64,000 nt of DNA from Metridium senile (taxonomy: Eukaryota; Cnidaria; Anthozoa; Actiniaria; Metridiidae), in the NCBI GenBank assembly GCA_949775045.1, contig OX459103.1:5629502-5693501 (forward strand), read 5' to 3'. The notes under the pieces are model-generated. The model was not told the origin of the DNA and searched no databases. It saw nothing but the letters and a program-made list of their open reading frames with translations. Made by a program: the position numbers and the translations under genes. Below, in pieces: positions 741-46,690 of the stretch. Numbering within the stretch: position 1 is the stretch's first letter; every line of letters starts with the position of its first letter.

Positions 741-1042
741 CAAAGAGAGAAAAAACGTTCACTTTTAGACTGAAAAACTGCTCATTTATTTGCACAGAAA
801 TACCACTAAATCAATTCCAGTTAAAACAGTTCAGGCGCTGGCCAGGAAATAAGAAAATATGAGATTAACGAGTGAAGTTTTTGGATAGAATTTAAAGCAC
901 CACACAAAGAGAAAAAACCTGTTCACTTTTAGACTGCAAAACTGCTCATTTTTTTTGCACAGAAACACCTCCAAATTAATTCCAGTTAAAACAGTTGAGG
1001 CGCTGGCCAGGAAATAGAAATTATATAAGATAAACAAGTTGA
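741..1042. repeat. Tandem duplication of a ~162-bp unit
   Basis: Two copies, starting near 741 and 903, share the block TTCACTTTTAGACTG and the block GGCGCTGGCCAGGAAATA. The copies differ by scattered substitutions and small indels. The flanking stretches 500-740 and 1,043-1,680 hold nothing I recognise, and I find no ELM2-encoding exon there. Confidence 0.85.
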
Positions 1043-1681
1043 GTTTATTGAAGATTTTGTGCTATTTTATAGCTGATTCAGTTTGAAAAACCTGTCGATA
1101 TTAACCCGTCAAACGGGTGTCATTATTCTTGACATTTGAAAACCCAACTGTCGTTTGTTAAGTGAGCACAAGTCAGTGTTGGTAGTCTTTTTGTAAAGGC
1201 ACATGCTCCACTAGTTATAGAATGGTTCAATGTCTTACCAAGTTACTCAATAAGCAGAAAAGAGTTGGTGGCAGATAGTAAATAACGTGGTCAATAATTT
1301 TTTTAAACATATTTTTTGCTGGTTTTCGCTATGTTCAGCAGCAAAAACTAAAAACTATTTATACTAATCTAATAACAAAATGGTGTATTTGTGGGCATAA
1401 AATGACAAGAGGAGTTGTAAACATTGTTGTTTTTTAGGGTATTTTCTCTTGAAATATTTAGTAAACAAAAAGACAAAATCAGCTTGTAAGAAACAAGCAC
1501 CACCCAAAATCGAAATGAATGCTGGTTTTGTGCTGGTAACGTATTGAAAATGACTGGTTATTAACATAATTGATTGTAGTACAATAAAAATACGCGAAAA
1601 CTAGTTTCATTTTTAGTTCTCTAGAAAACATGCATTACCAGCACAAACGCATTATTCTCGGATTGTTTCTTGTTGCTTACG

Positions 1682-1744
1682 GCCAACCTCGTTCCCAGGG
1701 ACCTATCCCTTCGCTTTTGGAGAGGCCCTGGGAACGAGGTTGGC
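1682..1744. mobile_element. ~63-bp palindromic mini-element
   Basis: The inverted ends GCCAACCTCGTTCCCAGGG and CCCTGGGAACGAGGTTGGC flank a short loop. A second member of the family lies at 60,670-60,729, where a clear 9-bp target duplication is visible. Here the flanks GCTTACGG and GCTTAAGC match at 6 of 8 positions, consistent with an older, decayed duplication. It lies in the intron after RERE exon 5. It is non-coding and far too small to be autonomous. Confidence 0.8.
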
Positions 1745-1798
1745 TTAAGCCGCGACGTTTTTTTATTAGGTGTAGTATATACATAGTGTAGAATATAC

Positions 1799-1906
1799 CT
1801 TGTTTCTGGATTATATCCCAACAAATAGAAGAAGCAATCTTCCTTAGCGATGTACTCTTTAAGATTCTCAGATATTTCCACAAATGGACGGACCTTGCAC
1901 TTGCCC
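1799..1906 (-). CDS. RERE: RERE coding exon 5 (end of BAH domain)
   Basis: A 108-nt exon from acceptor CTTCATCAG to donor ACAAG|GTATAT. It encodes [20 protein letters not shown] and then [16 protein letters not shown]. The final block marks the BAH-ELM2 junction in this family. It enters and leaves in phase 2. The following ELM2 exon is not in bases 1-1,796, so the gene continues beyond the left edge. Confidence 0.94.
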
Positions 1907-7900: not shown

Positions 7901-10900
7901 ATCACTTTGTCATATTTTGAAAAAAAAAAAACCCACAGTACAATGTATGTAAATGTTTTGGTTATTTTTTGTTTACAAAAACATTTTTTTCTTTATTTTG
8001 TTGTTGTTGTTGCCAAAAACATGTACTTATACTATGAAGAAAAAACGTGGTTGTATGTATATATGATTTAGGAAGTTTTAGTTAATTTTAAGAGTAAAAG
8101 TCTTAAGAAAATTATTTCTATATATTTTGTGGTTAGGATTTGTCGGTGTGGTGTATTGAGATTATGATGGTGCATATTACTTAATCCATAATGCTAAAAC
8201 AATCTTATGATAAAATATCAGAAAGCATAACATACCTACATATAATATATTATTGGACATTTGTGATTAATTCAAAGGTTAAAGTTACTAAATATTAGTA
8301 TATTTGTGTGTTTAATTTTGTATTGAGTCTTTCTCAGCAGGGTGTTCTAAATTAGTAATATGTAACTTAATCCTTTACGAAACTGGTGGAAATTTTTAGG
8401 GTAAATTGAAATATTATTAAATGACAATTCAAATGAAAGTTTTCACGTTTTGTTGAACAGATTAGGAGTCATAATCAAACTGTAAAAAATGAACATATCT
8501 CAGACATTTTTGAAGTTTGCTTGAACGACTACAGGACAATCCATCAAAGTTAAGACTGAAGTGTTTGATTAAATACATTAACAGCATTTATCTACTGAAG
8601 CATTGCCTTGAATGACCATAAAACAATACATCAATATTGAAGCTAGAGTTTTCAGCTCAAAACATTTGACTGTATTTTAATTTATCTTATCAAGCCTTGT
8701 CTAAGACCACAGAACAATACGTTCAGGTTGAGGATGGAGTTTTCAAATTAATAAATTAGACTGTAGTTTAATTTATCTTATCAAGCCTTGTCTCCCAAGA
8801 ACACACAACAATATGTTCAAGTTGAGGCCTGAGTTTTCAACTTATACATTAATTTACTGTATTTATTCAAGCCTTGTCCTGAATGGCCTTGAAATGGAAC
8901 AATAAATTTAAGTTCTAGGGCTTGAGTCGTTTCAATATCATACATAAACTTAATTTATTCTTTTGGAATGCTCAAGTACATAAATAGTTTTGCAATCAAT
9001 GTCTAAAATGTTGATGTATATGGAAATAGCCATCATTGGTCTTTCATGATTATGTATGCACTAGAAGTATCAAAACTCAGCAACTAAATCAATAATCATT
9101 GAAAAAACAAGTGTACAATTAAAATTTGTCATCAATCTAGTAACAAAGGACATGGAATTTGGTGAAAGTGTATGTCAAAATGCTAATTTACTAGCTTATC
9201 ACTTATGTTGTAGACCACAACAGACATAATAGATAATATAAGCCACAGCGGCAGATGATAAACAGCTTCATTTAAGAAGATTATTATGTTACAATCATAT
9301 GTTGATCAAGTATTAATACATGTTAAAGCGTTGATATCAAATTTCACTGATTACTTAACATGTAAATTCAAAATAAAAAGTTCATACATATGTTAAGTAT
9401 ATTTGTACAACTGGGACAGAAAATAAAACATATTTAACATAACAATTGTGTAAACTATTCTTATTAAACATATATGCAAACATGATTTTATACATGATCT
9501 ATTCAGATTGAAATATGTAAGTATTATTAACAATCATATGCCAATTATTAGTTAAATATATCCCAAATAAAATAACACATTTGTACTATTTATAATATAA
9601 TCGACTCGTGCTAATAAAACTACAATTATAATATAATAAAAATATATAATAAAAATATAAAATATATAAAATATAATAAAAATATATAATATAATAAAAA
9701 TGTAAAATATATATAATATAATATAAATGTAAAATATATATAATATAATAAAAATATAAATTATATAAATTATAATAAAAATATAAAATATATATAATAT
9801 AATAATAACATATATATTATAAAAATATCAAAATTGTGCAACTATTTTTTTACATTTGAATTGTCAATTCTCATGAAGAAACAAAACTATTATAATAATA
9901 TATTATAATGTCTGAGCATTTAGTTTAATTGTTGGTTCTTATTTGATTTGTCCCTATGCATCCATCAATAGCTTTCAAGTCTGCCGTTATTATGTAAATT
10001 TAAGTCAGATAAGACAATTATAAATCATGCTTTGTAAGTGTTTATAACTAATGATCTTACTCCTAGTGTCATGGTGTCAATCTATTTAAAGGTTCTAACA
10101 TAGAAAAAAGAGGAAAAAAAGAAAACATCAAATTTTCTCTTCAAAATTACCTTAATATTTTGGAGATATTTAATATATTTATTTTTTCAAAAGAAAAGCC
10201 CTTCATGATTATCACTATTGAACATGCCCCAATTATCAATATATTAGATAGAAATCCACAGTTATAATATTTATTACAAATTACATTCAAGTTGTAGATA
10301 AAAGAATATTGTAAAAAAAAGTTATTTTGTTCAAAAAAAATATCCTTCATTAAAAAACATGACTATACTCTATAGAAATCTAGTTATAATAATGATCACA
10401 AATTATATTCAAGTTGTAAATAAAAAAAAATTGTAAAAAAGTTATTTTCTTCAAAAAAATATCTTTCATTAAAAAATATGACTATACTGTAGATATACTA
10501 TAAAGAAATCTAGTTATAATATTGATCACAAATTATATTCAAGTTGTAAATAAAAAAAAAATTGTAAGAAAGTTATTTTCTTCAAAAAAATATATTTCAT
10601 TAAAAAATATGACTTTACTGTAGATATACTATAAAGAAATCTAGTTATAATATTGATCACAAATTATATTCAAGTTGTAAATAAAAAAAATTGTAAAAAA
10701 GTTATTTTCTTCAAAAAAATATCTTTCATTAAAAAATATGACTATACTGTAGATATACTATAAAGAAATCTAGTTATGATATTGATCACAAATTATATTC
10801 AAGTTGTAAATAAAAAAAATTGTAAAAAAGTTATTTTCTTCAAAAAAAAATATTTCATTAAAAAATATGACTATACTGTAGAAATACTATAAAGAAATGT

Positions 10901-13900
10901 AGTTATAATATTGATCACAAATTATATTCAAGTTGTAAATAAAAAAAATATTGTAAAAAAGTTATTTTGTTCAGTATAAGACACCTTTAAAAAAAATAAT
11001 GCTTTACTAGATATAAGTTTTTAAAACCAAAAAAAGATTCAAAATTTGTAACATTTTGCCCTCTTTTCCCTCAAGTTATTAAAGCAATCACCTTTGAAAC
11101 AAGCCAATTGAAAGCTACTAAATAATTAATGAATTAACACTGCATGCATAAACACACAACAATAACTTAAAGACCATTCAATGATCGAGCAGCCAAAGAA
11201 AGGGTTTTCAGGAGGACACTTCTATAAACACATTTTTAAAATTGATAAAGGTATCATCAATAAAGATCATAAAAAATGTACATGACTTTAGAGAGAGATA
11301 CATTTAACTCATACATTTTAAACAGTTGTAGTAGATAATTGACCTTCAAAGAGATCAGGAATCAGATTGGCTACCAATCATGGGATAACGATAGTGTTTA
11401 TTATAGGTAGCCTAGCTTTAATATATAATAATATAAATTAAGCAAAACTTAGATTAGCCCCCCTCCCGTCCCTCCTTCAAAAAATGACCTTTCCCTTAAA
11501 ACTAGCATATATTGATATACCAAAGATACAATATCAAGGCCATCACAATATAAACTGTTAGCAAGGTAGATATCATAATGAAATTTGTAGATCAAATAGG
11601 ATCTTGGGAGAAAATATATTAACAAGGAAAATATTTTTTCAGCAATATTTGAATGTGAAAGTTGAAAAAATATCAAAGATACAATATCAAAGCCATCACC
11701 ATATAAACTATTAGCATGATAGATATCAATGAGATTTGCTATGTCAAATAGGATCTCAGAGAAAATTCAATAACAAGGAAAAAAAAATTTCTGCAATATT
11801 TGAATGTGAAACTTGATTTTCAAGCAAAGACTATTAAGTAATCTTACTTTAAATAATCATTATTACAACGATTGTAATTGTTAATTGAGAAAAGCAGGAT
11901 AAAATAGGATTTTAGTATTTGATAACAATGAAAACACTTAGAAAAAAAACTGAAAAAAGTCTTGTGGTGTAGGGATCAGATAGGTAACCCCTTTTGCAGG
12001 GCCCCCATATGTGAAAGAAAATTTCAAAGAGGGGAAATAGCCTATACAAGTGAAAGGAAACAATTTACTACATGACATGTTGACAAGTGTCTATAAATTA
12101 CTGACAAAGATAATAAACAGTAAAGATGAAGCTATACACCCAACAAATAAATGATAGAATGAAAACAATAAAAGATATCAAAAATATGAAGGATTTTGTT
12201 TTGAAAACATGTCAAAATAGGATTTAAATAGAAGATAAGTTGATGGTTTTTCACAGCAGTAATTTGACAATCAAAGGAAACAATGGGTAAAAAAAAATAA
12301 ATAAATGATAAAATAAAATATATTGAAGATAAAAAGAATGGAAATAAATTTCCATAAAATCTGTTCAGAAAACATAGAATGAAATATTGAAGATTTTCTC
12401 AAAACATAAACCAAAGCTTGTAAACTACTATAATCTCTAGCTCATGACAGTGAATATTCAGTGGAATATCTAACAATATTTAAAATGAAATCAATAGTAA
12501 AAGGGGAAAAATTGTGTCCAAAATTGTTCAGGAAATGGCCTTACAAGGAAATTCTAATAAAGTTGAGTTTATGAGCTATCACAGCAATTAATTGCCCCTG
12601 TAACAAAATATGGTTTTAAAAGCCAGATTACATTACAAATACATGTTACTTTGATAAAATAGTAATAGAACGGCATTTCAATAGAATTGGAAAACAAAAT
12701 CATTGCAAGTCAACTAAAAATAAAGTGTCAAAATAATGTTTTTTTAATCGAAATGTTTTTTCTAATATATAGGTAAGATTCAGGTAAAATGATGAATGGT
12801 AAAACTATTTCAAAATTATTGGAAAATGCAACATCAATGACATTTTTATATCAAACAATTTCCAAGTTGAAAACAAATATATAATTGCTTAAAAATATAA
12901 TTTAGAAAAAGAAAAATGAAATGTTATTTTTATAATTTCCCCCTTGTAATATTTCATACAAAATTAAAAATAGGTAAGTAAACCTGTTTCAAAAATCAGT
13001 TTACAATTCAAAAAAAATCACAATATATATAAAAAAAAATTAAATAAAAAAAACACAAAAAACTATGCCCCTTTTCAGATCGAAAAAACGGAATTTAAAT
13101 GACACTGACTGCTGTAACTCAATGGTACAATGTTGATTATTATTTATGTAAACATACATTTCTAGCTAATAATATTAAGAGTCAACATGCGTACGTCTTA
13201 ATGGTTATGTGCCGTTTTGCATGTGAAATAGAGAATCGAAAATCAAGTGGCATTAACCATATATGATGAGTGGCTTATCTCAAAGACATTGAAAGCACGA
13301 TTCACAATTTACATCTGTGTTTAGCGAGTTACGATAACAAAGGTCTTGTAGTTGCAAGTCAAAACATGATTTTTTTGTTGACAGAAGTGTACTCGAGCGA
13401 ATAAGCTCGGCTTTTGTAAAATCAACATGAAATCGACAAGCCGTGAATTCCGAACAAGCGATCGTTTCTAGATTAAATTTACAATTACATGCGGTGAAGT
13501 TAAGGATTGCATATGATTGAAACTAAAACCCTACCATCCGGAATTCCTTGATTGAGCAGATAAAATAAGGCACATCGGGTCTTTGGCTGTCCACATAAAC
13601 ACAATCTAAAAGAAAAATAGAAAGTCAAATGAGAGTAGAAAATGTTTTTGAAATCGTTCTAGGGGTAATAATTTACGACCTGCTAGCTTAGTGTTTATTT
13701 CTTGTTTCGGCACCCCCATGTTAAACAAACCCTTCTTTTGTTTGAAAGTCGTGTTTAAAGACATGAAAATGTTATAAATTGTAGCAAACTAGGAGATTTA
13801 CAATCGAGAGTTAAAATAATAAATATTGGGAAAAACTTGCGGAAAATCAACACCATTGTTCCAAATGTAAATTTAGCGTAAATTCGATTTACATGCGATG

Positions 13901-28190: not shown

Positions 28191-28200
28191 CAACAAACTC
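28191..28200. repeat. Target-site duplication, left copy
   Basis: CAACAAACTC immediately precedes the terminal GGG of the foldback element. It is identical to 41,851-41,860. Because of the adjoining C/G bases the duplication could be counted as 9 or 10 bp. Confidence 0.88.
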
Positions 28201-28310
28201 GGGAATTAACACACTTGCAAAGTTTGCAAAATCATATACTAGTACTAGTAAAAAAAAGTTCGCAATTTATATGATTATGTATAAATAACTATATAAAATA
28301 TTCACTATAT
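28201..28310. repeat. Terminal inverted repeat, left unique part
   Basis: Starts GGGAATTAACACACTTGC, includes TTTGCAAAATCATATACTAG and one orphan AAAAAAAAGTTCGCAA half-unit, and ends TATTCACTATAT before the array. Compared with the right end it differs in the three bases after GGG and at one internal base (ACTATATAA versus ACTCTATAA). Confidence 0.9.
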
Positions 28311-31300
28311 ACTAGTAAAAAAAAGTTCGCAAATCTATCAACTTTAACAAATTGCGAACTTTTTACATGTATACTAGTAAAAAAAAGTTCGCAAATCTAT
28401 CAACTTTAACAAATTGCGAACTTTTTACATGTATACTAGTAAAAAAAAGTTCGCAAATGTATCAACTTTAACAAATTGCGAACTTTTTACACGTACCTAT
28501 AGGATAATATAATATACTAGTAAAAAAAAGTTCGCAAATCTATCAACTTGAACAAATTGCGAACTTTTCACTTGTATACTAGTAAAAAAAAGTTCGCAAA
28601 TCTATCAACTTTAACAAATTGCGAACTTTTTACATGTATACTAGTAAAAAAAAGTTCGCAAATGTATCAACTTTAACAAATTGCGAACTTTTTACACGTA
28701 CCTATAGGATAATATAATATACTAGTAAAAAAAAGTTCGCAAATCTATCAACTTGAACAAATTGCGAACTTTTCACTTGTATACTAGTAAAAAAAAGTTC
28801 GCAAATCTATCGACTTTAACAAATTGCGAACTTTTCACTTGTATACTAGTAAAAAAAAGTTCGCAAATCTATCAACTTTAACAAATTGCGAACTTTTCAC
28901 TTGTATACTAGTAAAAAAAAGTTCGCAAATGTATCAACTTGAACAAATTGCGAACTTTTTACACGTACCTATAGGATAATATAATATACTAGTAAAAAAA
29001 AGTTCGCAAATGTATCAACTTTAACAAATTGCGAACTTTTTACACGTACCTATAGGATAATATAATATACTAGTAAAAAAAAGTTCGCAAATCTATCAAC
29101 TTGAACAAATTGCGAACTTTTCACTTGTATACTAGTAAAAAAAAGTTCGCAAATCTATCAACTTTAACAAATTGCGAACTTTTCACTTGTATACTAGTAA
29201 AAAAAAGTTCGCAAATCTATCAACTTTAACAAATTGCGAACTTTTTACTTGTATACTAGTAAAAAAAAGTTCGCAAATCTATCAACTTTAACAAATTGCG
29301 AACTTTTTACACGTATACTAGTAAAAAAAAGTTCGCAAATCTATCAACTTTAACAAATTGCGAACTTTTTACACGTACCTATAGGATAATATAATATACT
29401 AGTAAAAAAAAGTTCGCAAATCTATCAACTTTAACAAATTGCGAACTTTTTACATGTATACTAGTAAAAAAAAGTTCGCAAATCTATCAACTTGAACAAA
29501 TTGCGAACTTTTCACTTGTATACTAGTAAAAAAAAGTTCGCAAATCTATCAACTTTAACAAATTGCGAACTTTTCACTTGTATACTAGTAAAAAAAAGTT
29601 CGCAAATCTATCAACTTTAACAAATTGCGAACTTTTTACTTGTATACTAGTAAAAAAAAGTTCGCAAATCTATCAACTTTAACAAATTGCGAACTTTTTA
29701 CACGTATACTAGTAAAAAAAAGTTCGCAAATCTATCAACTTTAACAAATTGCGAACTTTTTACACGTACCTATAGGATAATATAATATACTAGTAAAAAA
29801 AAGTTCGCAAATCTATCAACTTTAACAAATTGCGAACTTTTTACATGTATACTAGTAAAAAAAAGTTCGCAAATCTATCAACTTGAACAAATTGCGAACT
29901 TTTCACTTGTATACTAGTAAAAAAAAGTTCGCAAATCTATCAACTTTAACAAATTGCGAACTTTTCACTTGTATACTAGTAAAAAAAAGTTCGCAAATCT
30001 ATCAACTTGAACAAATTGCGAACTTTTTACACGTACCTATAGGATAATATAATATACTAGTAAAAAAAAGTTCGCAAATGTATCAACTTTAACAAATTGC
30101 GAACTTTTTACACGTACCTATAGGATAATATAATATACTAGTAAAAAAAAGTTCGCAAATCTATCAACTTGAACAAATTGCGAACTTTTCACTTGTATAC
30201 TAGTAAAAAAAAGTTCGCAAATCTATCAACTTGAACAAATTGCGAACTTTTCACTTGTATACTAGTAAAAAAAAGTTCGCAAATCTATCAACTTTAACAA
30301 ATTGCGAACTTTTTACTTGTATACTAGTAAAAAAAAGTTCGCAAATCTATCAACTTTAACAAATTGCGAACTTTTTACACGTATACTAGTAAAAAAAAGT
30401 TCGCAAATCTATCAACTTTAACAAATTGCGAACTTTTTACACGTACCTATAGGATAATATAATATACTAGTAAAAAAAAGTTCGCAAATCTATCAACTTT
30501 AACAAATTGCGAACTTTTTACACGTACCTATAGGATAATATAATATACTAGTAAAAAAAAGTTCGCAAATCTATCAACTTGAACAAATTGCGAACTTTTC
30601 ACTTGTATACTAGTAAAAAAAAGTTCGCAAATCTATCAACTTTAACAAATTGCGAACTTTTCACTTGTATACTAGTAAAAAAAAGTTCGCAAATCTATCA
30701 ACTTTAACAAATTGCGAACTTTTTACTTGTATACTAGTAAAAAAAAGTTCGCAAATCTATCAACTTTAACAAATTGCGAACTTTTTACACGTATACTAGT
30801 AAAAAAAAGTTCGCAAATCTATCAACTTTAACAAATTGCGAACTTTTTACACGTACCTATAGGATAATATAATATACTAGTAAAAAAAAGTTCGCAAATC
30901 TATCAACTTTAACAAATTGCGAACTTTTTACATGTATACTAGTAAAAAAAAGTTCGCAAATCTATCAACTTGAACAAATTGCGAACTTTTCACTTGTATA
31001 CTAGTAAAAAAAAGTTCGCAAATCTATCAACTTTAACAAATTGCGAACTTTTCACTTGTATACTAGTAAAAAAAAGTTCGCAAATCTATCAACTTTAACA
31101 AATTGCGAACTTTTTACTTGTATACTAGTAAAAAAAAGTTCGCAAATCTATCAACTTTAACAAATTGCGAACTTTTTACACGTATACTAGTAAAAAAAAG
31201 TTCGCAAATCTATCAACTTTAACAAATTGCGAACTTTTTACACGTACCTATAGGATAATATAATATACTAGTAAAAAAAAGTTCGCAAATCTATCAACTT

Positions 31301-32618
31301 TAACAAATTGCGAACTTTTTACATGTATACTAGTAAAAAAAAGTTCGCAAATCTATCAACTTGAACAAATTGCGAACTTTTCACTTGTATACTAGTAAAA
31401 AAAAGTTCGCAAATCTATCAACTTTAACAAATTGCGAACTTTTCACTTGTATACTAGTAAAAAAAAGTTCGCAAATCTATCAACTTGAACAAATTGCGAA
31501 CTTTTTACACGTACCTATAGGATAATATAATATACTAGTAAAAAAAAGTTCGCAAATGTATCAACTTTAACAAATTGCGAACTTTTTACACGTACCTATA
31601 GGATAATATAATATACTAGTAAAAAAAAGTTCGCAAATCTATCAACTTGAACAAATTGCGAACTTTTCACTTGTATACTAGTAAAAAAAAGTTCGCAAAT
31701 CTATCAACTTGAACAAATTGCGAACTTTTCACTTGTATACTAGTAAAAAAAAGTTCGCAAATCTATCAACTTTAACAAATTGCGAACTTTTTACTTGTAT
31801 ACTAGTAAAAAAAAGTTCGCAAATCTATCAACTTTAACAAATTGCGAACTTTTTACACGTATACTAGTAAAAAAAAGTTCGCAAATCTATCAACTTTAAC
31901 AAATTGCGAACTTTTTACACGTACCTATAGGATAATATAATATACTAGTAAAAAAAAGTTCGCAAATCTATCAACTTTAACAAATTGCGAACTTTTTACA
32001 TGTATACTAGTAAAAAAAAGTTCGCAAATCTATCAACTTGAACAAATTGCGAACTTTTCACTTGTATACTAGTAAAAAAAAGTTCGCAAATCTATCAACT
32101 TGAACAAATTGCGAACTTTTCACTTGTATACTAGTAAAAAAAAGTTCGCAAATGTATCAACTTGAACAAATTGCGAACTTTTTACACGTACCTATAGGAT
32201 AATATAATATACTAGTAAAAAAAAGTTCGCAAATGTATCAACTTTAACAAATTGCGAACTTTTTACACGTACCTATAGGATAATATAATATACTAGTAAA
32301 AAAAAGTTCGCAAATCTATCAACTTTAACAAATTGCGAACTTTTTACATGTATACTAGTAAAAAAAAGTTCGCAAATCTATCAACTTTAACAAATTGCGA
32401 ACTTTTTACATGTATACTTGTAAAAAAAAGTTCGCAAATCTATCAACTTGAACAAATTGCGAACTTTTCACTTGTATACTAGTAAAAAAAAGTTCGCAAA
32501 TCTATCAACTTGAACAAATTGCGAACTTTTCACTTGTATACTAGTAAAAAAAAGTTCGCAAATCTATCAACTTGAACAAATTGCGAACTTTTTACACGTA
32601 CCTATAGGATAATATAAT
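28311..32618. repeat. Left arm: array of about 64 hairpin units (62/81 bp)
   Basis: The basic unit ACTAGT-AAAAAAAAGTTCGCAA-(19-nt loop)-TTGCGAACTTTTTAC-(A/T)(C/T)GTAT is 62 bp and forms a stem of at least 13 bp. About 18 units are 81 bp because they insert ACCTATAGGATAATATAAT before the next ACTAGT. The same order of variant units recurs several times, a higher-order repeat. A loop variant CTATCAACTTGAAC is common in this arm. The copy count is my estimate from length. Confidence 0.95.
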
Positions 32619-33779
32619 TTATTTTTTTTCGGTCCGGTATCCTGTGATTCGTGCGCTGTGATTGGCTAGCGAGCGGGCCAGTTTTTCACGATCTGCCCGG
32701 TCCGCGGTATCCTGTTCGTTGGTTTTTGAAAAATTTGAAAAATCTTCTTTAATAGGTAATTGTTAATTATGGTAATATCTATCGATTAAAATAGTAGGAG
32801 ATCTATAATTCTGAATTCACCAAATGACACTGACAGAATGCGATAACCGACTGAGAGAAAATTAAAAGCTACGTGGCGAGCATTGTTTTTGCAAACATTT
32901 TGACAAGTAAAAGTTGAGAAAATCAAATCAATATTGCAAAAACTCACGAGAGAATACACAAAGTTTTTTGTAATTTCTAAAGAATATAAAGCTCGTTCAC
33001 ATACCTTAATAGTAGTTGAAAAATATACTTGTAGTTTTTATCATTCCTTGTAAACATAGTTAATCGATTATTAACTATATTGTAAACAACACAGCGGTGA
33101 ATTGAGCTATCTTTTGATGAGATATGTCGTTGCTTTTCAGTCACTTTTGAAATGCTATGAATTCACGAGAAGTTTATGTACAAAGTCTACAACGTTTTTG
33201 AAGTAAGGAAGTGTTCTTGTCTTTTTTTTCTGCACACAAAAGGATAAACAATCTTGAAAAAGGTCGATTTGCTTGATTCAAAGTCCTGTCAGCGATCCTA
33301 ATGCTTTCAACTTTCATCTTCTTCATAAATTACGACACAGACAAATTAATTCCTTCAACAGTTGTCGGTGGCTTCGACTAAATTTCTTATTTCTTATCAT
33401 TTATCGAAAAATAAGCTTCAGTAGGCTTTTTTCTTGATGCAAACGTCCACAAGAACGACGAATTTCAACTCGTTTCAACATCCATCTTGGTTCACTCAGT
33501 GTTCGACATCTATCAGCTAAAATCCTTTGTAAAACTTGTTTTTTGTTTCTTGACTTTCTTTGATGTTGAGATATAAACAAAACCCTTTCTCTTTAAACGA
33601 TATTTGATTTGGAATGATGGAGAAAGCTGCAGTAATTTAAAATATTTTGGCATTAAAATTTCTGTAAGTTTGTCGAGGCGCCGTCACACTGAATGAAAAC
33701 CGGTTTCTGACAACCCGCTCTTTTTCAGTAAAACTACTGGGAAGCCATTTGAAAGCAACGCGCGTCGTAAAATATCAAA
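32619..33779. other. Foldback core, left flank, no recognised gene
   Basis: Starts with a GC-richer block containing GTGATTGGCTAGCGAGCGGG and two GTATCCTGT words. An AT-rich stretch without open frames of note follows. Possibly a regulatory or structural part of the element. Confidence 0.5.
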
Positions 33780-33970
33780 AACATTATAATTACTCGGGAT
33801 TCCTGTGGAATCACCGAGTTTAGGATTCGGCATTATTTTTCTTTGGTCGTCGTCAAATTGCCGCGCACGCGCAGTATGGTCGAAGTTACGTCATTCACGT
33901 GATCAGAACTCTTGGCGTGGCGTCCATTTTGCTTCTCGCTATTGACAGTGGAGTAGTTAGTTTTCAAGGT
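33780..33970 (+). promoter_or_regulatory. Candidate promoter of the foldback-core gene
   Basis: Contains a small hairpin ACTCGGGATTCC...GGAATCACCGAGT (about 33,792-33,821), an NRF1-like GCGCACGCGCA (33,863-33,873), a CRE-like TTACGTCA (33,886-33,893) and an E-box CACGTG (33,896-33,901). The cluster lies just before the candidate start codon at 33,971. Motif matches are by eye. Confidence 0.5.
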
Positions 33971-34947
33971 ATGGATTCAACGTCTTTAAATACGCTCAAA
34001 TCGCTTACAAATTCACACACCATTCGCGGTATAGCCACACTAAAAGATGACGAGCGTTTTCGGAAAGGAGATTTAGAGAGACGCCGCGAATCTATCGTCA
34101 AACTGACTATGAAAGTGCCTATCGTGAAACTTAAACTATGTATTCAAAAGCGAATTATAATCAAACTTATACAAACTCTAAAACAACAAAGCTCAACTAC
34201 ATGTACAGAATGTGAACAAAGGTCTACCGAAGAAAAAACGAGGATTGCAAGCGGCATTTTAAGCGAAGAAGATTCAAGACTAGCGACTTGTGTTTACAGT
34301 CAACCAGACTCAAAGTAAGGCCGCCTAGCTTCTCAAAAATGATGACTTCTTTCAAATTAATAATGCTAAGTACCTTGCTTCTTTTATTATTTTTAATTCA
34401 AGGAAGTATTTTCTGTTTTTCCTATTTGATATTAGTCTTTATTAGGGTACAAAACAGTCAAGTTCTTCGACCGCTACACTCAAACTATTGTCATTTCATC
34501 GTTCAGTGATTGTGATATATTACTAGTTGTTTGACTGTATACAGGTATGAATGTATATAATGATGCAGAAGTCACAATAAAGATTACAAATAATACCAGA
34601 TTTCGTTATCCAAGGTTTGTTTGTTTATCATAGAATACGCTCAAATATAAGGTCTTCTGAGTTACATAATTATATTAACTGTGCAAAGGTCAAAATCGAG
34701 CATTATTCTTCAAAGTTCAAGGGGATTGGGACAGAAGCATTTATTTCTCAAAAAAGGTTCAAATGTAAAGCCAGTCGGTATATATCGTCCCTTTCTTGTA
34801 ATAGACCGATGTCTCTCTATAAGACTCAGTCACATGTAATGAATTACTGTAAGTGTAAACTATATTATGATGTAGAGAAGAATACTGGTCCTAAAAACAC
34901 ACTATATGTTGATCCAAGCAAGACAATAACAGCACCATATAGCAAAG
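33971..34947 (+). CDS. Foldback-core gene candidate (2 or more exons), unknown function, with degenerate 2A-like motif
   Basis: Proposed exons are 33,971-34,314 and 34,634-34,947. Exon 1 opens MDSTSLNTLKSLTNSHTIRG, is Lys/Arg/Glu/Ser-rich, and ends CTCAAA|GTAAGG. The acceptor TTTGTTTATCATAG at 34,633 restores frame exactly (phase 2). Exon 2 holds CKCKLYYDVEKNTGP (2A-like consensus DxExNPGP, with Thr for Pro, so probably inactive), then VDPSKTITAPYSKG. From memory, a VDPSKTI..PYS.GN block after a 2A peptide occurs in large mobile-element proteins of invertebrates. I cannot name the family. A donor AAAG|GTAATG follows at 34,948; without splicing the frame ends at 35,012. An acceptor near 35,169 (GTTTTACAG) would add about 16 codons. 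No catalytic domain is visible, so it may be a truncated relic. Confidence 0.5.
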
Positions 34948-35307
34948 GTAATGCTTTGACCTTTAAAATTACAACAATGTGCTGCAATGAGTTTATGTTC
35001 TTTAATTTATAATAACAAAAATGAAATTAATTCATCAAATGAGCTTGTAATGATCAGTTCTGATTGTCACAATCGGCATGACAGTCATTTCTCATGAAAT
35101 CAGAACTACCCACAAGTTTAAATGTGTTTAATACTGATATGAACTTCAATTTAGTGACAGTTTTACAGGTAATACAAAAAGAAACTGCAAATTATTCATA
35201 TCAGATATAGGTAGATAAACAAATTTCTGATGAAAGTGCGCTTTCAAGCAGGCGTCTATTTTCATGAATTGTACTTATAATTAAACGCGTAGCTAGAGCA
35301 TCAAAGA

Positions 35308-35698
35308 GAATCCCGAGTTCACGCAGTTATGCGTCTAGTTTAATATAGAGAGAGAATAAAAAAAATAAATAAGTTATTTACCGGCTAGAGGTGGACCGAG
35401 GTCCGTACATCCAAGACCTCGGGCAGTTTTTCACTATACGGACCTCCCAGCCGGTAAATAACATATATATACTAGTAAAAAAAAGTTCGCAAATCTATCA
35501 ACTTGAACAAATTGCGAACTTTTCACTTGTATACTAGTAAAAAAAAGTTCGCAAATCTATCAACTTTAACAAATTGCGAACTTTTTACTTGTATACTAGT
35601 AAAAAAAAGTTCGCAAATCTATCAACTTTAACAAATTGCGAACTTTTTACACGTATACTAGTAAAAACTAGACGCATAACTGCGTGAACTCGGGATTC
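35308..35698. mobile_element. Nested composite foldback within the core
   Basis: Perfect 34-bp inverted arms (35,308-35,341 and 35,665-35,698; GAATCCCGAGTTCACGCAG...) enclose two things. One is a palindrome at about 35,371-35,461 with TTATTTACCGGCT/AGCCGGTAAATAA ends and an ACCGAGGTCCGTA core. The other is a three-unit hairpin array. The arms share the CTCGGGATTC word with the promoter hairpin at 33,792. Confidence 0.8.
35471..35664. repeat. Short internal array of 3 hairpin units
   Basis: Three 62-bp units in left-arm orientation, including the GAAC loop variant typical of the left arm. They abut the nested inverted repeat, so a piece of left arm appears to have been copied into the core. 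Confidence 0.9.
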
Positions 35699-36689
35699 AT
35701 TGCGAATATGTAATCATTTTCTTGGATTAGCTTGAGATGATTTGAAGCAAAAAAAAGTTATTTTTTTGGTCGTCCTCCTTTTCTGTTTGGTCCGTTCCTT
35801 AAGTCCGTGATCCGCTTGCCTGTACTGCTTTTACCTGGATATCGATGTTCGGTTCGTGCAGTGATACATGCGAGCTGAAAGACTGTCTAAAAACAGTGTT
35901 ATTAAAGTTGTTCTTGCAAAATATACGCAAGAAAAAACAAGGTAGATACTAGTCACTAAAGCAATTGGTGTTATATTTGAGGCGATTTAATTTAGGCTGT
36001 TGGATGTAGTTTTCAGAGAGGCTGATTTCAGCTGTTTTATATTTGTTGTTGTTGAGCTTGACCTTGAGTTTTAAAATCGGTCACGTTATCTGACATATTG
36101 TAAACAAAGAAATATTACTTTCATCGTTCAACTGCTAGATAATAGGTTGAAGCGATTAAGTTTAAACTTAAAAGTTTTGCGTATAAGTTTGTTGTTCTTT
36201 GCCGAGAAGCTAAGCGCTCGGCAATCGCCAATCAATCGCGGATCTGAAGCTTGTACGAGCTAATAGTATAGTCAATAAAATTAAACTATTGACAGATAAA
36301 CTCGTTATTTTAATCAAAAATATAAAATAAATAATTACAAGAAGCAAAATATTTACCCTAAACATCACTAAAGTATTATACTGTTGTTGTCTTCACTTCT
36401 AGTGCGCTGTATCGTACTCTCTAAGAATGCTTACAATACAGTTAAATATCCAATAAACAGCTTCGTCCTTTGTAACTGGTTGTGAATCAATTCTATAGCA
36501 TTATGAGTTTATAGCAGGGACGATTTCTCGATAAATTCCATCATAATAAGTTGGCTCGCTTAATTAGCCCGTAAATTGCATGATCTGTATTAAAATTCAC
36601 AGTGACCCTTTCCGAAAACATTCGACATAAACTTAAGTGTAATTCCACTGCGAATCATGTGGAGTGAGCGCATAAAATATGAGAATATT
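35699..36689. other. Foldback core, right half, no recognised gene
   Basis: No conserved coding segment on either strand. Contains a small hairpin GCCGAGAAGCTAAGCGCTCGGC near 36,200, here noted by its arms GCCGAG and CTCGGC. Confidence 0.5.
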
Positions 36690-36870
36690 CCACCTAGAAA
36701 TCAATCCTTCGACGAATCAAATATCCATGTGCTCGTATTGGCCAGTCTACGCATGCGCTGTGACCATACGCATGCGCGGTGACGACTAGACGGCGTTTTG
36801 CGACCCAAGAAAAAAAACAAAAAAACATTGAAGCCCATTTTAAGACTCGGGTTTCCTTTGGAAAGCCCGA
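36690..36870 (-). promoter_or_regulatory. Second promoter-like block, opposite orientation
   Basis: Two NRF1-like GCATGCGC words (36,751-36,758 and 36,770-36,777), an ATTGGCC box near 36,738, and a hairpin ACTCGGGTTTCC...GGAAAGCCCGAGT at 36,846-36,872. In reverse orientation the layout parallels the block at 33,780-33,900: CTCGGG hairpin, T-rich stretch with a GGTCG word, then NRF1-like site. It could be a diverged inverted copy. Confidence 0.4.
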
Positions 36871-37071
36871 GTAAAAAGTTCGCAAATCTATCAACTTTAA
36901 CAAATTGCGAACTTTTTACATGTATACTTGTAAAAAAAAGTTCGCAAATCTATCAACTTGAACAAATTGCGAACTTTTTACACGTATACTAGTAAAAAAA
37001 AGTTCGCAAAACTATCAACTTTAATAAATTGCGAACTTTTTAAACGTACCTATAGGATAATATAATATACT
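36871..37071. repeat. Second internal array of 3 hairpin units
   Basis: Three units in left-arm orientation ending in the long-form ACCTATAGGATAATATAAT. They show private changes (CAAAACTATCAACTTTAATA, TAAACGTACC) not seen in the main arms. Confidence 0.9.
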
Positions 37072-37530
37072 ATCTACATGTATGATAAGAAATTAATGCA
37101 GATGATGTGGTCGGCTGTAACAATAATTATGATAAACTTACATACTTCAGATAAAATAATAACAAACCTTTCTTGCTTTTCACGCTGAGTTTCTTTCTTT
37201 TTCTTATAAGGTCGAAGGTAAAAGTTTTGCTTAATCGACATTTTGAAAGGCAACCCTTTCTTATTTAAAAACAAAAATTAGTTATGGTGGTGTTACACGG
37301 AGTCAATAATTTTGTTATATGTTAATGTTTCTGAGGGATAATGGGAGGGTCGATAAAAAAATGCCATCTACATGTAGTTGTTAAGTTGAAGGTTATTTCC
37401 TTCCTACAGAAAAGATGAACCTGCATGTTTAGCCTAAAATTGTGTTTAAAACATGTTTAGGCTAACTTAAAACCTAGGTCAGTTCTTATTCGTGGCCGGG
37501 TTTTTCCTGTATTCGATAACTTGTATAAGC
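37072..37530. other. Core DNA, no recognised feature
   Basis: AT-rich. The minus-strand frame at 37,074-37,274 is Lys/Phe-rich without a domain. Nothing supportable. Confidence 0.5.
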
Positions 37531-37532
37531 TA

Positions 37533-37673
37533 GAGTACAAATACTAAAAGTGTGCAACATAAATACCACTAAATACTGCTAAATTATGCAAATTCTTTTG
37601 TTCTCTATTGTTTAATCAACACTATTTAGTGGTAAATAGTACAAAGTATTGCACACTTTTAGTGTTTGTACTC
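37533..37673. mobile_element. 141-bp MITE, GAGTACAAACACT family, inside the foldback core
   Basis: GAGTACAAATACTAAAAGTG at the left and the inverse of GAGTACAAACACTAAAAGTG at the right, flanked by TA on both sides. The inner arms TACCACTAAATA and TATTTAGTGGTA pair. It is the same size as the copy at 55,365-55,505. Confidence 0.88.
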
Positions 37674-37760
37674 TATAAGTTATATACACCTACTTGCACC
37701 AAGGTTGCCATACAAAAATAGAACATTTGTCATAAAGAAAATAGAACATTTGTGATTTAG

Positions 37761-37865
37761 TGTGTATCGTTATTGTAATAAATGACAAAACTTATTGTGT
37801 ATCGTTATTGTAATAAATGACAAAACTTATTGTGTATCGTTAATGTAATAAATGACAAAACTTAT
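37761..37865. repeat. 35-bp tandem repeat, 3 copies
   Basis: Unit TGTGTATCGTTATTGTAATA-AATGACAAAACTTAT, three consecutive copies with one substitution. The following 37,866-38,182 holds nothing recognised. Confidence 0.92.
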
Positions 37866-38182
37866 GAGAAAACTTAAGATGTGTTAATTTGCTGTCTTTT
37901 ATTATAAAATACTGCATGATGAATTGTTAATTGCATGACAGAGTTTAGAGTGAAAACACTTATAATAATAATACTAATAGTGCTATCTTGTAAAAGTAAG
38001 TACTATTTCATGCTTTATTACTTATAGTAATATTAGGAGTACTATTTCACTTGTTTTGTGTTTGCACTGTAGGGGCATCATTTTTATTTACGCGCTATCG
38101 TCATTACCGGATATATGCATAGCCATTGTCTTTCAAAGATTGTCCTAAGTTGATCGATTTGCAAACTATCTTTTTTTTAATA

Positions 38183-41100
38183 GTATGCAAGTAAAAAGTT
38201 CGCAATTTGTTAAAGTTAATAGATTTGCGAACTTTTTTTTACTAGTATACAAGTGAAAAGTTCGCAATTTGTTAAAGTTGATAGATTTGCGAACTTTTTT
38301 TTACTAGTATACATGTAAAAAGTTCGCAATTTGTTAAAGTTGATAGATTTGCGAACTTTTTTTTACTAGTATATTATATTATCCTATAGGTACGTGTAAA
38401 AAGTTCGCAATTTGTTAAAGTTGATAGATTTGCGAACTTTTTTTTACTAGTATACGTGTAAAAAGTTCGCAATTTGTTAAAGCTGATAGATTTGCGAACT
38501 TTTTTTTACTAGTATACAAGTGAAAAGTTCGCAATTTGTTAAAGTTGATAGATTTGCGAACTTTTTTTTACTAGTATACAAGTGAAAAGTTCGCAATTTG
38601 TTAAAGTTGATAGATTTGCGAACTTTTTTTTACTAGTATACGTGTAAAAAGTTCGCAATTTGTTAAAGCTGATAGATTTGCGAACTTTTTTTTACTAGTA
38701 TACAAGTGAAAAGTTCGCAATTTGTTAAAGTTGATAGATTTGCGAACTTTTTTTTACTAGTATACGTGTAAAAAGTTCGCAATTTGTTAAAGCTGATAGA
38801 TTTGCGAACTTTTTTTTACTAGTATACAAGTGAAAAGTTCGCAATTTGTTAAAGTTGATAGATTTGCGAACTTTTTTTTACTAGTATATTATATTATCCT
38901 ATAGGTACGTGTAAAAAGTTCGCAATTTGTTAAAGTTGATAGATTTGCGAACTTTTTTTTACTAGTATACGTGTAAAAAGTTCGCAATTTGTTAAAGCTG
39001 ATAGATTTGCGAACTTTTTTTTACTAGTATACAAGTGAAAAGTTCGCAATTTGTTAAAGTTGATAGATTTGCGAACTTTTTTTTACTAGTATACGTGTAA
39101 AAAGTTCGCAATTTGTTAAAGCTGATAGATTTGCGAACTTTTTTTTACTAGTATACAAGTGAAAAGTTCGCAATTTGTTAAAGTTGATAGATTTGCGAAC
39201 TTTTTTTTACTAGTATATTATATTATCCTATAGGTACGTGTAAAAAGTTCGCAATTTGTTAAAGTTGATAGATTTGCGAACTTTTTTTTACTAGTATACG
39301 TGTAAAAAGTTCGCAATTTGTTAAAGCTGATAGATTTGCGAACTTTTTTTTACTAGTATACAAGTGAAAAGTTCGCAATTTGTTAAAGTTGATAGATTTG
39401 CGAACTTTTTTTTACTAGTATATTATATTATCCTATAGGTACGTGTAAAAAGTTCGCAATTTGTTAAAGTTGATAGATTTGCGAACTTTTTTTTACTAGT
39501 ATACGTGTAAAAAGTTCGCAATTTGTTAAAGCTGATAGATTTGCGAACTTTTTTTTACTAGTATACAAGTGAAAAGTTCGCAATTTGTTAAAGTTGATAG
39601 ATTTGCGAACTTTTTTTTACTAGTATACGTGTAAAAAGTTCGCAATTTGTTAAAGCTGATAGATTTGCGAACTTTTTTTTACTAGTATACAAGTGAAAAG
39701 TTCGCAATTTGTTAAAGTTGATAGATTTGCGAACTTTTTTTTACTAGTATATTATATTATCCTATAGGTACGTGTAAAAAGTTCGCAATTTGTTAAAGTT
39801 GATAGATTTGCGAACTTTTTTTTACTAGTATACGTGTAAAAAGTTCGCAATTTGTTAAAGCTGATAGATTTGCGAACTTTTTTTTACTAGTATACAAGTG
39901 AAAAGTTCGCAATTTGTTAAAGTTGATAGATTTGCGAACTTTTTTTTACTAGTATATTATATTATCCTATAGGTACGTGTAAAAAGTTCGCAATTTGTTA
40001 AAGTTGATAGATTTGCGAACTTTTTTTTACTAGTATACGTGTAAAAAGTTCGCAATTTGTTAAAGCTGATAGATTTGCGAACTTTTTTTTACTAGTATAC
40101 AAGTGAAAAGTTCGCAATTTGTTAAAGTTGATAGATTTGCGAACTTTTTTTTACTAGTATACGTGTAAAAAGTTCGCAATTTGTTAAAGCTGATAGATTT
40201 GCGAACTTTTTTTTACTAGTATACAAGTGAAAAGTTCGCAATTTGTTAAAGTTGATAGATTTGCGAACTTTTTTTTACTAGTATACAAGTGAAAAGTTCG
40301 CAATTTGTTCAAGTTGATACATTTGCGAACTTTTTTTTACTAGTATACATGTAAAAAGTTCGCAATTTGTTAAAGTTGATAGATTTGCGAACTTTTTTTT
40401 ACTAGTATATTATATTATCCTATAGGTACGTGTAAAAAGTTCGCAATTTGTTAAAGTTGATAGATTTGCGAACTTTTTTTTACTAGTATACAAGTGAAAA
40501 GTTCGCAATTTGTTAAAGTTGATAGATTTGCGAACTTTTTTTTACTAGTATACATGTAAAAAGTTCGCAATTTGTTAAAGTTGATAGATTTGCGAACTTT
40601 TTTTTACTAGTATATTATATTATCCTATAGGTACGTGTAAAAAGTTCGCAATTTGTTAAAGTTGATAGATTTGCGAACTTTTTTTTACTAGTATACGTGT
40701 AAAAAGTTCGCAATTTGTTAAAGCTGATAGATTTGCGAACTTTTTTTTACTAGTATACAAGTGAAAAGTTCGCAATTTGTTAAAGTTGATAGATTTGCGA
40801 ACTTTTTTTTACTAGTATACAAGTGAAAAGTTCGCAATTTGTTCAAGTTGATACATTTGCGAACTTTTTTTTACTAGTATACATGTAAAAAGTTCGCAAT
40901 TTGTTAAAGTTGATAGATTTGCGAACTTTTTTTTACTAGTATATTATATTATCCTATAGGTACGTGTAAAAAGTTCGCAATTTGTTAAAGTTGATACATT
41001 TGCGAACTTTTTTTTACTAGTATACGTGTAAAAAGTTCGCAATTTGTTAAAGCTGATAGATTTGCGAACTTTTTTTTACTAGTATACAAGTGAAAAGTTC

Positions 41101-41741
41101 GCAATTTGTTAAAGTTGATAGATTTGCGAACTTTTTTTTACTAGTATACGTGTAAAAAGTTCGCAATTTGTTAAAGCTGATAGATTTGCGAACTTTTTTT
41201 TACTAGTATACATGTAAAAAGTTCGCAATTTGTTAAAGTTGATAGATTTGCGAACTTTTTTTTACTAGTATATTATATTATCCTATAGGTACGTGTAAAA
41301 AGTTCGCAATTTGTTAAAGTTGATAGATTTGCGAACTTTTTTTTACTAGTATACAAGTGAAAAGTTCGCAATTTGTTAAAGTTGATAGATTTGCGAACTT
41401 TTTTTTACTAGTATACATGTAAAAAGTTCGCAATTTGTTAAAGTTGATAGATTTGCGAACTTTTTTTTACTAGTATACATGTAAAAAGTTCGCAATTTGT
41501 TAAAGTTGATAGATTTGCGAACTTTTTTTTACTAGTATACATGTAAAAAGTTCGCAATTTGTTAAAGTTGATAGATTTGCGAACTTTTTTTTACTAGTAT
41601 ATTATATTATCCTATAGGTACGTGTAAAAAGTTCGCAATTTGTTAAAGTTGATAGATTTGCGAACTTTTTTTTACTAGTATACGTGTAAAAAGTTCGCAA
41701 TTTGTTAAAGTTGATAGATTTGCGAACTTTTTTTTACTAGT
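38183..41741. repeat. Right arm: inverted array of about 54 hairpin units
   Basis: Same unit as the left arm in reverse orientation, with about 11 long (81-bp) units. A variant loop GTTAAAGCTGATAGA is frequent here and absent from the left arm. A few units carry GTTCAAGTTGATACA, the counterpart of a left-arm variant. Arm-specific variants show the arms have amplified partly independently. Confidence 0.95.
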
Positions 41742-41850
41742 ATATAGTGAATATTTTATAGAGTTATTTATACATAATCATATAAATTGCGAACTTTTTT
41801 TTACTAGTACTAGTATATGATTTTGCAAACTTTGCAAGTGTGTTAGTCCC
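41742..41850. repeat. Terminal inverted repeat, right unique part
   Basis: Inverse of 28,201-28,310, ending GCAAGTGTGTTAGTCCC. The near-identity of the two ends points to a recent insertion or to gene conversion between the arms. Confidence 0.9.
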
Positions 41851-41860
41851 CAACAAACTC
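41851..41860. repeat. Target-site duplication, right copy
   Basis: CAACAAACTC immediately follows the terminal CCC of the foldback element, an exact match to the left copy. Confidence 0.88.
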
Positions 41861-44429: not shown

Positions 44430-46690
44430 TTAATAATGATATGATAATGAAATGATTTGACATATTAATTATATATTTATATAATTTATGTTAATGATTA
44501 ATATATCATTTTCATATATCATGAATGATATGACAATAAACTTATGTGATAATGATATGACAATGATATACAATGATATAACAATATACTAATGAAAAAC
44601 TAATGATATACTAATGATATGACAATGATATACTAATGATATGACAATGATATACTAATGATATGACAATGATATACTAATGATATGACAATGATATACT
44701 AATGATATGACAATGATATACTAATGATATGCTAATGATATGACAATGATATATTAATGATATGACAATGATATACTAATGATATGACAATGATATACTA
44801 ATGATATGACAATGATATACTAATGATATGACAATGATATACTAATGAAATGCTAATGATATGACAATGATATATTAATGATATGACAATGATATACTAA
44901 TGATATGACAATGATATACTAATGATATGACAATGATATACTAATGATATGACAATGATATACTAATGATATGACAATGATATACTAATGATATGACAAT
45001 GATATACTAATGATATGACAATGATATACTAATGATATGCTAATGATATGACAATGATATATTAATGATATGACAATGATATACTAATGATATGACAATG
45101 ACATACTAATGATATGACAATGATATATTAATGATATGACAATGATATACTAATGATATGACAATGATATACTAATGATATGATAATGATATACTAATGA
45201 TATAACAATGATATACTAATAATATGATAATGATATACTAATGATATGATAATGATATACTAATGATATGACAATGATATGACAATGATATACTAATGAC
45301 ATGAAAATGATGTACTAATGATATAACAATGATATACTAATGATATGACAATGATATACTAATGATATGATAATGATATACTAATATGATAATGATATAC
45401 TAATGATATGACAATGATATACTAATGATATGATAATGATATACTAATGATATGATAATGATATGACAATGATATACTAATGATATGACAATGATATACT
45501 AATGATATGATAATGATATACTAATATGATAATGATATACTAATGATATGACAATGATATACTAATGATATGATAACGATATACTAATGATATGATAATG
45601 ATATGACAATGATATACTAATGATATGATAATGATATACTAATGATATACAAGTGACATTACAATGATATACTAATGATATGACAATGATATACTAATGA
45701 TATGATGATATACTAATGAAATGACAATGATATACTAATGATATGATAATGATATGATATACTAATGATATGATAATGATATACTAATGATATACGAGTG
45801 ACATTACAATGATATAGTAATGATATGACAATGATATACTAATGATATGATGATATACTAATGAAATGACAATGATATACTAATGATATGATATGATATA
45901 CTAATGATATGATAATGATATACTAATATGATAATGATATACTAATATGACAATATCTGACATGACGACTATATGCTAATATGACAATGATATGCTAATG
46001 ATATGACAATTATATACTAATGATATATTAATGATATGACAATGATATCCTAATGATATGACAATGATATATTAATGAAATGACAATGATATATTAATGA
46101 AATGACAATGATATACTAATGATATGACAATGATATACTAATGATATACTAATGATATGACAATGATATACTAATGACATGAAAATGATGTACTAATGAT
46201 ATAACAATGATATACTATTGATATGACAATGATATACTAATATGACAATGATATACTAATGACATGACAATGATATATTAATGATATGACAATATACTAA
46301 TGATATAACAATGATATACTAATGATATGACAATGATATACTAATGATATGATAATGATATACTAATGAAATGACAATGATATACTAATGAAATGACAAT
46401 GATATACTAATGATATGACAATGATATACTAATGATATGATAATGATATGACAATGATGTGATACTGATATACTAATGACATGAAAATGATATACTAATG
46501 ATAGGACAATGATATACTAATGATATGACAATGATATACTAATGATATGACAATGATATACTAATGATATGACAAGGATATACTAATGACATGACAATGA
46601 TATACTAATGATATGACAATGATGTGACAATGATATACTAATGACATGAAAATGTTGTACTAATGATATGACAGTGATATATTAATGGTC
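44430..46690. repeat. 2.3-kb minisatellite, 22-bp unit (two 11-bp halves)
   Basis: The dominant unit is ATGATATACTA + ATGATATGACA. Variants replace GACA by GATA or GCTA, or TGAT by TGAA. The array is most regular from 44,590 to 45,180 and more mixed towards the right. There is no coding capacity because 22 is not a multiple of three. Confidence 0.97.

Follow-up and report, generated by a model that had tools for sequence, protein, structure and literature searches.

We describe here an insertion in a 64,000-nt stretch of the Metridium senile contig OX459103.1 (assembly GCA_949775045.1, positions 5,629,502-5,693,501, forward strand), referred to below as the window. The insertion is discrete, occupies window positions 28201-41851 (13,651 bp) and carries long inverted arms built of satellite units that are themselves palindromic. 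We consider it likely that it is a non-autonomous foldback cut-and-paste DNA transposon whose movement probably depends on a Mutator-like transposase supplied in trans. The element integrates as one piece, duplicates 9 bp of the target and has two distinguishable ends.

A first reading of the window, made from the letters alone (the sequence-only reading), had described a 13.65-kb element with flanking direct repeats, near-identical termini of ~110 bp and two oppositely oriented satellite arms of ~4.3 and 3.6 kb. These observations stood, with the right end moved outward by one base. The direct repeat AACAAACTC matches exactly on the two sides. In three copies (that of the window, C3_12.9 and C4_2.57) a tenth letter, C, fits as well and is identical with the final C of the right terminus; it does not fit in C8_17.65, C11_5.28 and C16_0.59; because it fits in only three of the six copies with exact repeats, the duplication is best read as 9 bp, not 10. 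The termini, 110 bp each and inverted, are identical at 107 positions (97.3%). The first arm (A-arm) spans element positions 31-4421 (4,391 bp) and the second (G-arm) positions 9947-13621 (3,675 bp). An orientation motif occurs 64 times forward and never in reverse in the A-arm, and 40 times in reverse and never forward in the G-arm. Unit anchors (65 in the A-arm and 55 in the G-arm) are spaced by 62 or 81 bp, save for one 67-bp step at each terminus. The element thus shows the structure that defines foldback elements, that is, long inverted ends of tandem subrepeats whose length differs between ends and between copies.

The assembly (389 Mb, 169 contigs) was searched for the terminus, a search on which the sequence-only reading had staked its claim of a foldback transposon. 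A 21-bp terminus pattern gave 31 exact matches and 7 with one or two mismatches, i.e., 38 sites; the 23 further matches at three mismatches are mostly background, because the reversed pattern gave 17 over all classes. With a 30-bp pattern and up to three mismatches there were 40 matches, and none with the reversed pattern. Further loci do carry this terminus together with a 9-bp target duplication, the length seen in the window. Inverted pairs were read at 17 loci and range from 196 bp to 13.65 kb; 15 of them were excised and masked (the window copy among them), the others being C7_13.53 and C5_18.58. Single ends read for their flanks were L024, L026, L027, L029, L030, L032, L033, L035, L039 and L040.

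Four other candidates for single ends (L025, L028, L031 and L034) were rejected and left out of the counts, as they belong to another dispersed element, in which a fragment of the terminus is present. That element, found at C1:60.46, C5:20.59, C8:10.57 and C14:3.52 Mb, starts with GCATCCTGTAAACC, has hairpin subrepeats of its own around ACACGGACTGAGTCCGTGT and holds the same fragment of the present terminus in all four copies. At L038 (C5:18.58) and L041 (C1:49.00 Mb) the terminus lies directly within a repeat of ~215 bp, which is inverted around the terminus in L038 and recurs further along in L041; possibly, another foldback family has taken over these ends. C5_18.58 (L038) was kept among the 17 inverted pairs.

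The ends are of two types, the A-end beginning with GGGAATT and the G-end with GGGGACT, each followed by a shared terminus of ~100 bp. Both heptamers are intact in 11 copies (neither C5_18.58 nor L041 among them); 10 of these have one end of each type and one, C8_15.678, is G/G. Six of the 11 are flanked by exact 9-bp duplications (the window copy, C3_12.9, C4_2.57, C8_17.65, C11_5.28 and C16_0.59), and in C12_3.6 the duplication matches at 7 of 9 positions. Instead of a transposon, one could envision a free satellite that recombination or extrachromosomal circles have spread, with arrays inverted by chance and termini that are simply array edges. An array on C15 (C15:6214018-6227577; L051 and L035) fits such a picture, since it extends over at least 13.4 kb, all of one orientation, as far as a G-end, with 201 anchors, no gap longer than 142 bp and one visible terminus. 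The exact duplications at six intact copies and the two fixed, distinct ends argue against it, as does the distribution of the satellite itself: among 1,137 unit cores found genome-wide at up to two mismatches (none in the control), 1,050 lie within loci fetched for or beside the terminus. We regard a free satellite as highly improbable.

The length of the duplication also bears on the enzyme. Mutator-like elements produce duplications of ~9 bp and the P superfamily duplications of 7-8 bp. The six exact duplications of the present family, at 9 bp, agree with the former and lie outside the 7-8 bp expected of the P superfamily. A range of about 9 bp is likewise given for Mutator-like elements in PMC6446971. 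A Mutator-like enzyme is proposed because of the 9-bp duplication, as was argued for Tm1 of root-knot nematodes from 9 bp (PMC3169594) and for Tetris of the Drosophila virilis group from 8-10 bp (PMC4079207). Alternatively, an element of the same kind might be driven by a P-type (Galileo-like) or some other transposase. Galileo does combine foldback architecture with a P-type transposase (PMC3688188, PMC4168063, PMC3573991), the foldback form has reportedly evolved on repeated occasions (PMC4079207), and our searches linked no Mutator-like gene to these ends; however, the duplications of Galileo are 7 bp long (PMC2775673). We think that a driver outside the Mutator-like group is unlikely.

Three inner sites of the terminus were used to type the ends, C5_7.5 and C16_0.59 being only partly typed. 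G-ends have C at the first site wherever typed, and the fully typed ones are C-A-A or C-A-C. The A-ends of C3_12.9, C11_5.28, C12_3.6 and C8_15.636 are G-T-C, and that of the damaged C9_11.76 is G-T-T. The A-ends of the window copy, C4_2.57, C11_0.87, C8_17.65 and C9_12.42 are C-A-A, yet start with GGGAATT. The simplest reading of this mixture is that the inner part of the latter ends would have been overwritten from the other end, with the heptamer kept.

Two copies on C8, ~40 kb apart, bear on the question of exchange between copies. C8_15.678 has the ends G/G, and C8_15.636 has the ends A/A, with a damaged left heptamer. The two right flanks, AGTAGGTTT in C8_15.636 and AAACCTACT in C8_15.678, are reverse complements of each other without a mismatch. 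On the left side of C8_15.636, GTGAAG runs straight into the terminus and supplies 5-6 letters of the GTGAAGACG that C8_15.678 would lead one to expect, the remaining letters of the 9-mer and the outer G's being missing. Exchanged duplications combined with A/A and G/G ends are what a reciprocal exchange between two parallel copies predicts. The two copies look like both products of one inversion by recombination, as judged from a single assembly, in which the segment is seen in one order. The same pattern of exchanged duplications served as evidence that Galileo generated inversion 2z3 (PMC2775673).

For a comparison of the arms, each distinct unit was coded as a letter and five-unit words were compared among the 16 arms with at least 10 units; C5_7.5, C8_15.636, C8_15.678, C1_30.8 and C16_0.59 had been left out beforehand. 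Common words were seen in 11 of 60 same-type pairs, in 2 of 54 cross-type pairs and, for the two arms of a single copy, in 1 of 6 pairs. The sharing arms fall into two groups, one made up of the window copy, C4_2.57, C11_0.87 and the G-arm of C9_12.42, the other of C8_17.65 and C13_15.3. The A-arm of the window copy shares 8 of 29 words with the A-arm of C4 and 6 of 37 with that of C11, and its G-arm shares 17 of 29 and 27 of 34 words with the respective G-arms. Between the two arms of the window copy 0 of 34 words are shared. For these examples, 100 shuffles give 0-0.4. In the first group the array edges are alike and the middle differs by block duplication, and C8_17.65 contains a run of 29 units twice in tandem. 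The comparison speaks to the possibility that the inverted arms arose as an assembly artefact through mirror duplication of one array. The lengths of arrays may be wrong in any assembly of such repeats, but the order of units differs between the arms (five of the six copies share no word) while each arm matches same-type arms on other chromosomes, and there are many independent inverted copies. For these reasons, a mirror image made in assembly appears extremely improbable.

A single unit folded as DNA gives a perfect 13-bp stem with a 19-nt loop (-11.8 kcal/mol, z -6.2), and none of 200 shuffles was as good. The 23-bp motif TACTAGTAAAAAAAAGTTCGCAA, at positions 43-65 of the terminus, recurs exactly in many satellite units; the ~62-bp unit repeats this motif and holds 13 bp of it (AAAAAGTTCGCAA) again, inverted. 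The sequence-only reading had proposed that the structure folds at three scales, those of the unit, the arm and the whole element. The palindromy of unit and arm is real as sequence, but the sequences give no support to a role for folding as such. Conservation was 96.0% in stems, 95.8% in loops and 83.9% in linkers over 163 distinct 62-mers, a set confined to those within 12 mismatches of one typed unit, which flattens contrasts. With stems and loops alike, selection on the unit hairpin found no support; the hairpin is most likely the outcome of paired half-sites and not a functioning DNA hairpin. A literature search on palindromic subrepeats listed no title on that subject.

The core of ~5.5 kb had been taken to be gene-bearing. 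Comparison with C11_0.87 and C4_2.57 resolves it into layers, namely a non-coding core of ~1.07 kb (region III), satellite blocks and nested repeats. Its longest stop-to-stop frames (164, 143 and 97 amino acids) all lie within a nested insert of 1,544 bp; the two of 164 and 143 amino acids were scanned and had no Pfam match, and elsewhere in the window core no frame exceeds 83 amino acids. A gene-bearing core as proposed is therefore not supported. This insert, which splits region I of the window copy and is absent from the two other copies, has at its 3' end a hairpin, ACGCA-GTTA-TGCGT, followed by CTAG, at an A/T-rich site. Region II likewise ends in a short hairpin and then CTAG at an A/T-rich site, and both were assigned as Helitron-like by the end rule of Helitrons. 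Region II appears to sit inside a satellite unit, and a relative of ~81% identity is present in C1_30.8. The three-unit blocks at 35458 and 36868 were presumably part of the A-arm before the nested insertions, because their orientation is that of the A-arm. When the window copy is compared with C11_0.87 and C4_2.57, identity is 100% over region III and over the first part of region I, 99.2% over the second part of region I and 99.0-99.6% over region II, which points to recent movement. The first 1,171 bp of region I have copies at 94-99% on many contigs, with one piece at 79% (40 of 1,046 candidates scored). Region III, by comparison, matched within family loci, save for the repeat like a miniature inverted-repeat transposable element (MITE) that it contains, with its immediate edges, and one 55-bp piece (82%) beside a copy of that MITE on C1 (40 of 2,252 candidates scored). 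The copy at C4:2571717-2583729 (L011, L012) carries region I and the adjoining satellite block twice, a duplication that exceeds arm units.

The search for a transposase made use of the terminus patterns, of PF10551 over the genome, of nine loci of Mutator-like elements (MULEs; six belonging to three families in near-identical pairs, and three more) and of region III as a probe. Across the 17 inverted pairs there are 14 stop-to-stop frames of at least 100 amino acids, in a scan that could miss genes with introns; 13 had no Pfam match over the cut-off. The remaining frame, of 273 amino acids, lies in an insert in region III of C1_30.8 (L009, element 6107-6925) and matches Herpes_teg_N (PF04843, E 4.5e-6), which is no transposase; the domain occurs in large eukaryotic transposons. 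The region III probe, over the candidates scored, linked no transposase to these ends, and nine chosen frames of at least 110 amino acids around L024-L036 matched STING, PAN, reverse transcriptase and zf-RVT in Pfam and no DDE transposase. The searches of the 17 pairs, the PF10551 loci and the terminus patterns agree with the sequence-only reading, which had seen no transposase. A MULE-type frame of 544 amino acids at L048 (C1:44.15 Mb) shows SWIM-like Cys/His patterns by eye; of the other frames at this locus, one resembles a PHD finger and another contains a repeated stretch, again by eye, a composition like that of Rehavkus.

We propose the following course of events. A Mutator-like transposase supplied in trans would tell the left end from the right by the outer heptamers and would bind the subterminal motif, the unit being, by analogy with Galileo, a predicted binding site with an inverted partner. 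The arms would then be expanded stocks of this motif, which may lengthen and shorten through tandem duplication of blocks of units. Recombination between such inverted, repeat-rich copies could yield mixed inner ends, short or chimeric copies, inverted segments and free satellite arrays. A further step, which we put forward tentatively and hold to be somewhat short of an even chance, is that the outer heptamers are true identity tags for left and right, everything inside them being open to overwriting, that the palindromic unit is a paired transposase site and that the arms are a self-extending binding platform that seeds satellites and inversions. It is suggested by the 10 of 10 unrearranged intact copies that keep one tag of each kind, and by the two exceptions, one copy with G/G tags and one with A/A tags (a heptamer being damaged), which would both have come from the one inversion proposed above.

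Several observations weigh against the proposed transposon and its mode of change. Four of the 11 intact copies (C9_12.42, C5_7.5, C7_13.53 and C8_15.678) have no target duplication. In the arm comparison, 49 of the 60 same-type pairs share no word, and the A-arm of C11_0.87 contains three words of G-type arms. The direction of the inner-end change is one that we infer, and a common ancestor may explain several of the copies, so that they are not independent events. Stems are no better conserved than loops over the 163 distinct 62-mers. No transposase or autonomous copy was linked to the ends, in searches none of which was aimed at P-type families and in an assembly that may lack the autonomous copy; of 30 PF10551 matches, the nearest is ~0.68 Mb from any of the 38 termini. 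The terminus motif was absent from the nine PF10551 loci as read in part, in stretches of 5-7.5 kb that fall short of at least some element ends, given that duplicate copies still match at the edge.

The sequence-only reading had considered the element the best candidate in the window for a new system. The architecture is shared with Tm1, Tetris and Galileo, and that view is not supported. Long inverted repeats of tandem subrepeats are typical of FB of Drosophila and TU of sea urchin. The closest likeness is to Tm1 (Mutator/Foldback). Its inverted ends are composite, vary in length and consist of tandem subrepeats; the duplications are mostly of 9 bp, the outer 7-bp motifs are asymmetric, generally with one kind per end, and most copies are non-autonomous, some of them with nested insertions (PMC3169594). 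The pairing of a GGGAATT end with a GGGGACT end in 10 of the 11 intact copies and the 9-bp duplications are features of this type. Tm1 differs in that its subrepeats are 13-15 bp long, with no hairpin mentioned in the available part of that paper, whereas the present units are 62/81-bp hairpins; its main classes average ~0.4-1.2 kb, whereas the present arms reach 4-5 kb; a Tm1-A copy with a MULE-domain transposase is known, whereas here no transposase copy was found; and its printed heptamers and subrepeat, compared by eye, are unlike ours (PMC3169594). Tetris/DAIBAM resembles the present family in being a non-autonomous foldback with tandem repeats within its arms, in having repeats that also form kilobase satellite arrays, and in the want of an autonomous copy, and differs in its repeats of ~220 bp, its arms of at most 1,735 bp and its unique outer domain of up to 866 bp; the same source reports that Tetris repeats gave rise to satellites, places DAIBAM at inversion breakpoints and names foldbacks of Drosophila and sea urchin hosts (PMC4079207). 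Galileo of Drosophila shares the foldback form and has likewise been found at natural inversions where target duplications are exchanged and copies are chimeric (PMC2775673), and sites for its transposase have been located both close to the end and within the arm repeats (PMC3688188); in contrast, it belongs to the P superfamily and its transposase is known (PMC2775673, PMC3688188). Rehavkus has 9-bp duplications, a minisatellite near one end and Mutator-like kinship, but its minisatellite precedes the 3' end and its transposase has a PHD finger, whereas here both arms are satellite and no transposase was found (PMC6446971).

As far as we searched, the novelty lies in the family itself, in a cnidarian host group, in arms of this length and in a palindromic unit; among the papers listed by a literature search for foldback elements in cnidarians, none mentioned such elements. 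Foldback elements are known agents of chromosome inversion, and the growth of their arms and the lasting difference between their ends are poorly documented. The present family offers 17 inverted pairs of widely differing size in one chromosome-scale assembly, in which arm change can be traced unit by unit; it displays what are apparently both products of one exchange and connects the arm of a transposon with a long satellite array of a single orientation. Its value is that of a natural series for study, not of a new system. If the heptamers are identity tags and the arms a binding platform, a foldback family of that kind would be placed in cnidarians.

Table 1. Features of the window copy and its flanks (window positions).
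Feature	Positions	Strand	Remarks
Left target-site duplication AACAAACTC	28192..28200	+	direct reading; exact match to right copy
A-end terminus, begins GGGAATTAACACAC; 23-bp motif TACTAGTAAAAAAAAGTTCGCAA at its positions 43-65	28201..28310	+	
A-arm, 62/81-bp hairpin units in single orientation	28311..32621	+	
Region I, first part: nested copy of a dispersed repeat	32622..33791	+	
Nested insert in region I, Helitron-like ends	33792..35335	+	absent from C11_0.87 and C4_2.57
Region I, second part	35336..35457	+	joined to first part in C11_0.87 and C4_2.57
Three satellite units, A-arm orientation	35458..35667	+	
Region II, Helitron-like insert, reversed	35668..36867	-	ends; comparison with other copies
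Three satellite units, A-arm orientation	36868..37072	+	
Region III, the family's own non-coding core	37073..38146	+	whole or partial in many copies
148-bp palindromic MITE-like repeat, high-copy, inside region III	37531..37678	+	
G-arm, 62/81-bp hairpin units, opposed to A-arm	38147..41741	-	
G-end terminus, inward reading GGGGACTAACACAC	41742..41851	-	
Right target-site duplication AACAAACTC	41852..41860	+	

An Rfam scan of the window gave no match. To the right of the element, at a distance of ~2.7 kb, window positions 44547-46687 hold a 2.1-kb array of an 11/44-bp repeat (TGACAATGATA). Near the truncated solo end at L033 (C13:8.92 Mb), at less than 6 kb, there are two STING-like frames of 377 and 231 amino acids. 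For one of the STING genes the best match was an unnamed protein (59% identity), followed by Actinostola, a Montipora coral protein (E-value of the same class) and Actinia; the matches of this one locus by themselves point to a sea anemone as the probable host. Among the 120 of 197 matches listed, the identities of the STING-like protein were 55% for Actinostola, 54% for Actinia, 53-55% for Exaiptasia, 43% for Nematostella, 42% for Montipora and 38-43% for other named corals.

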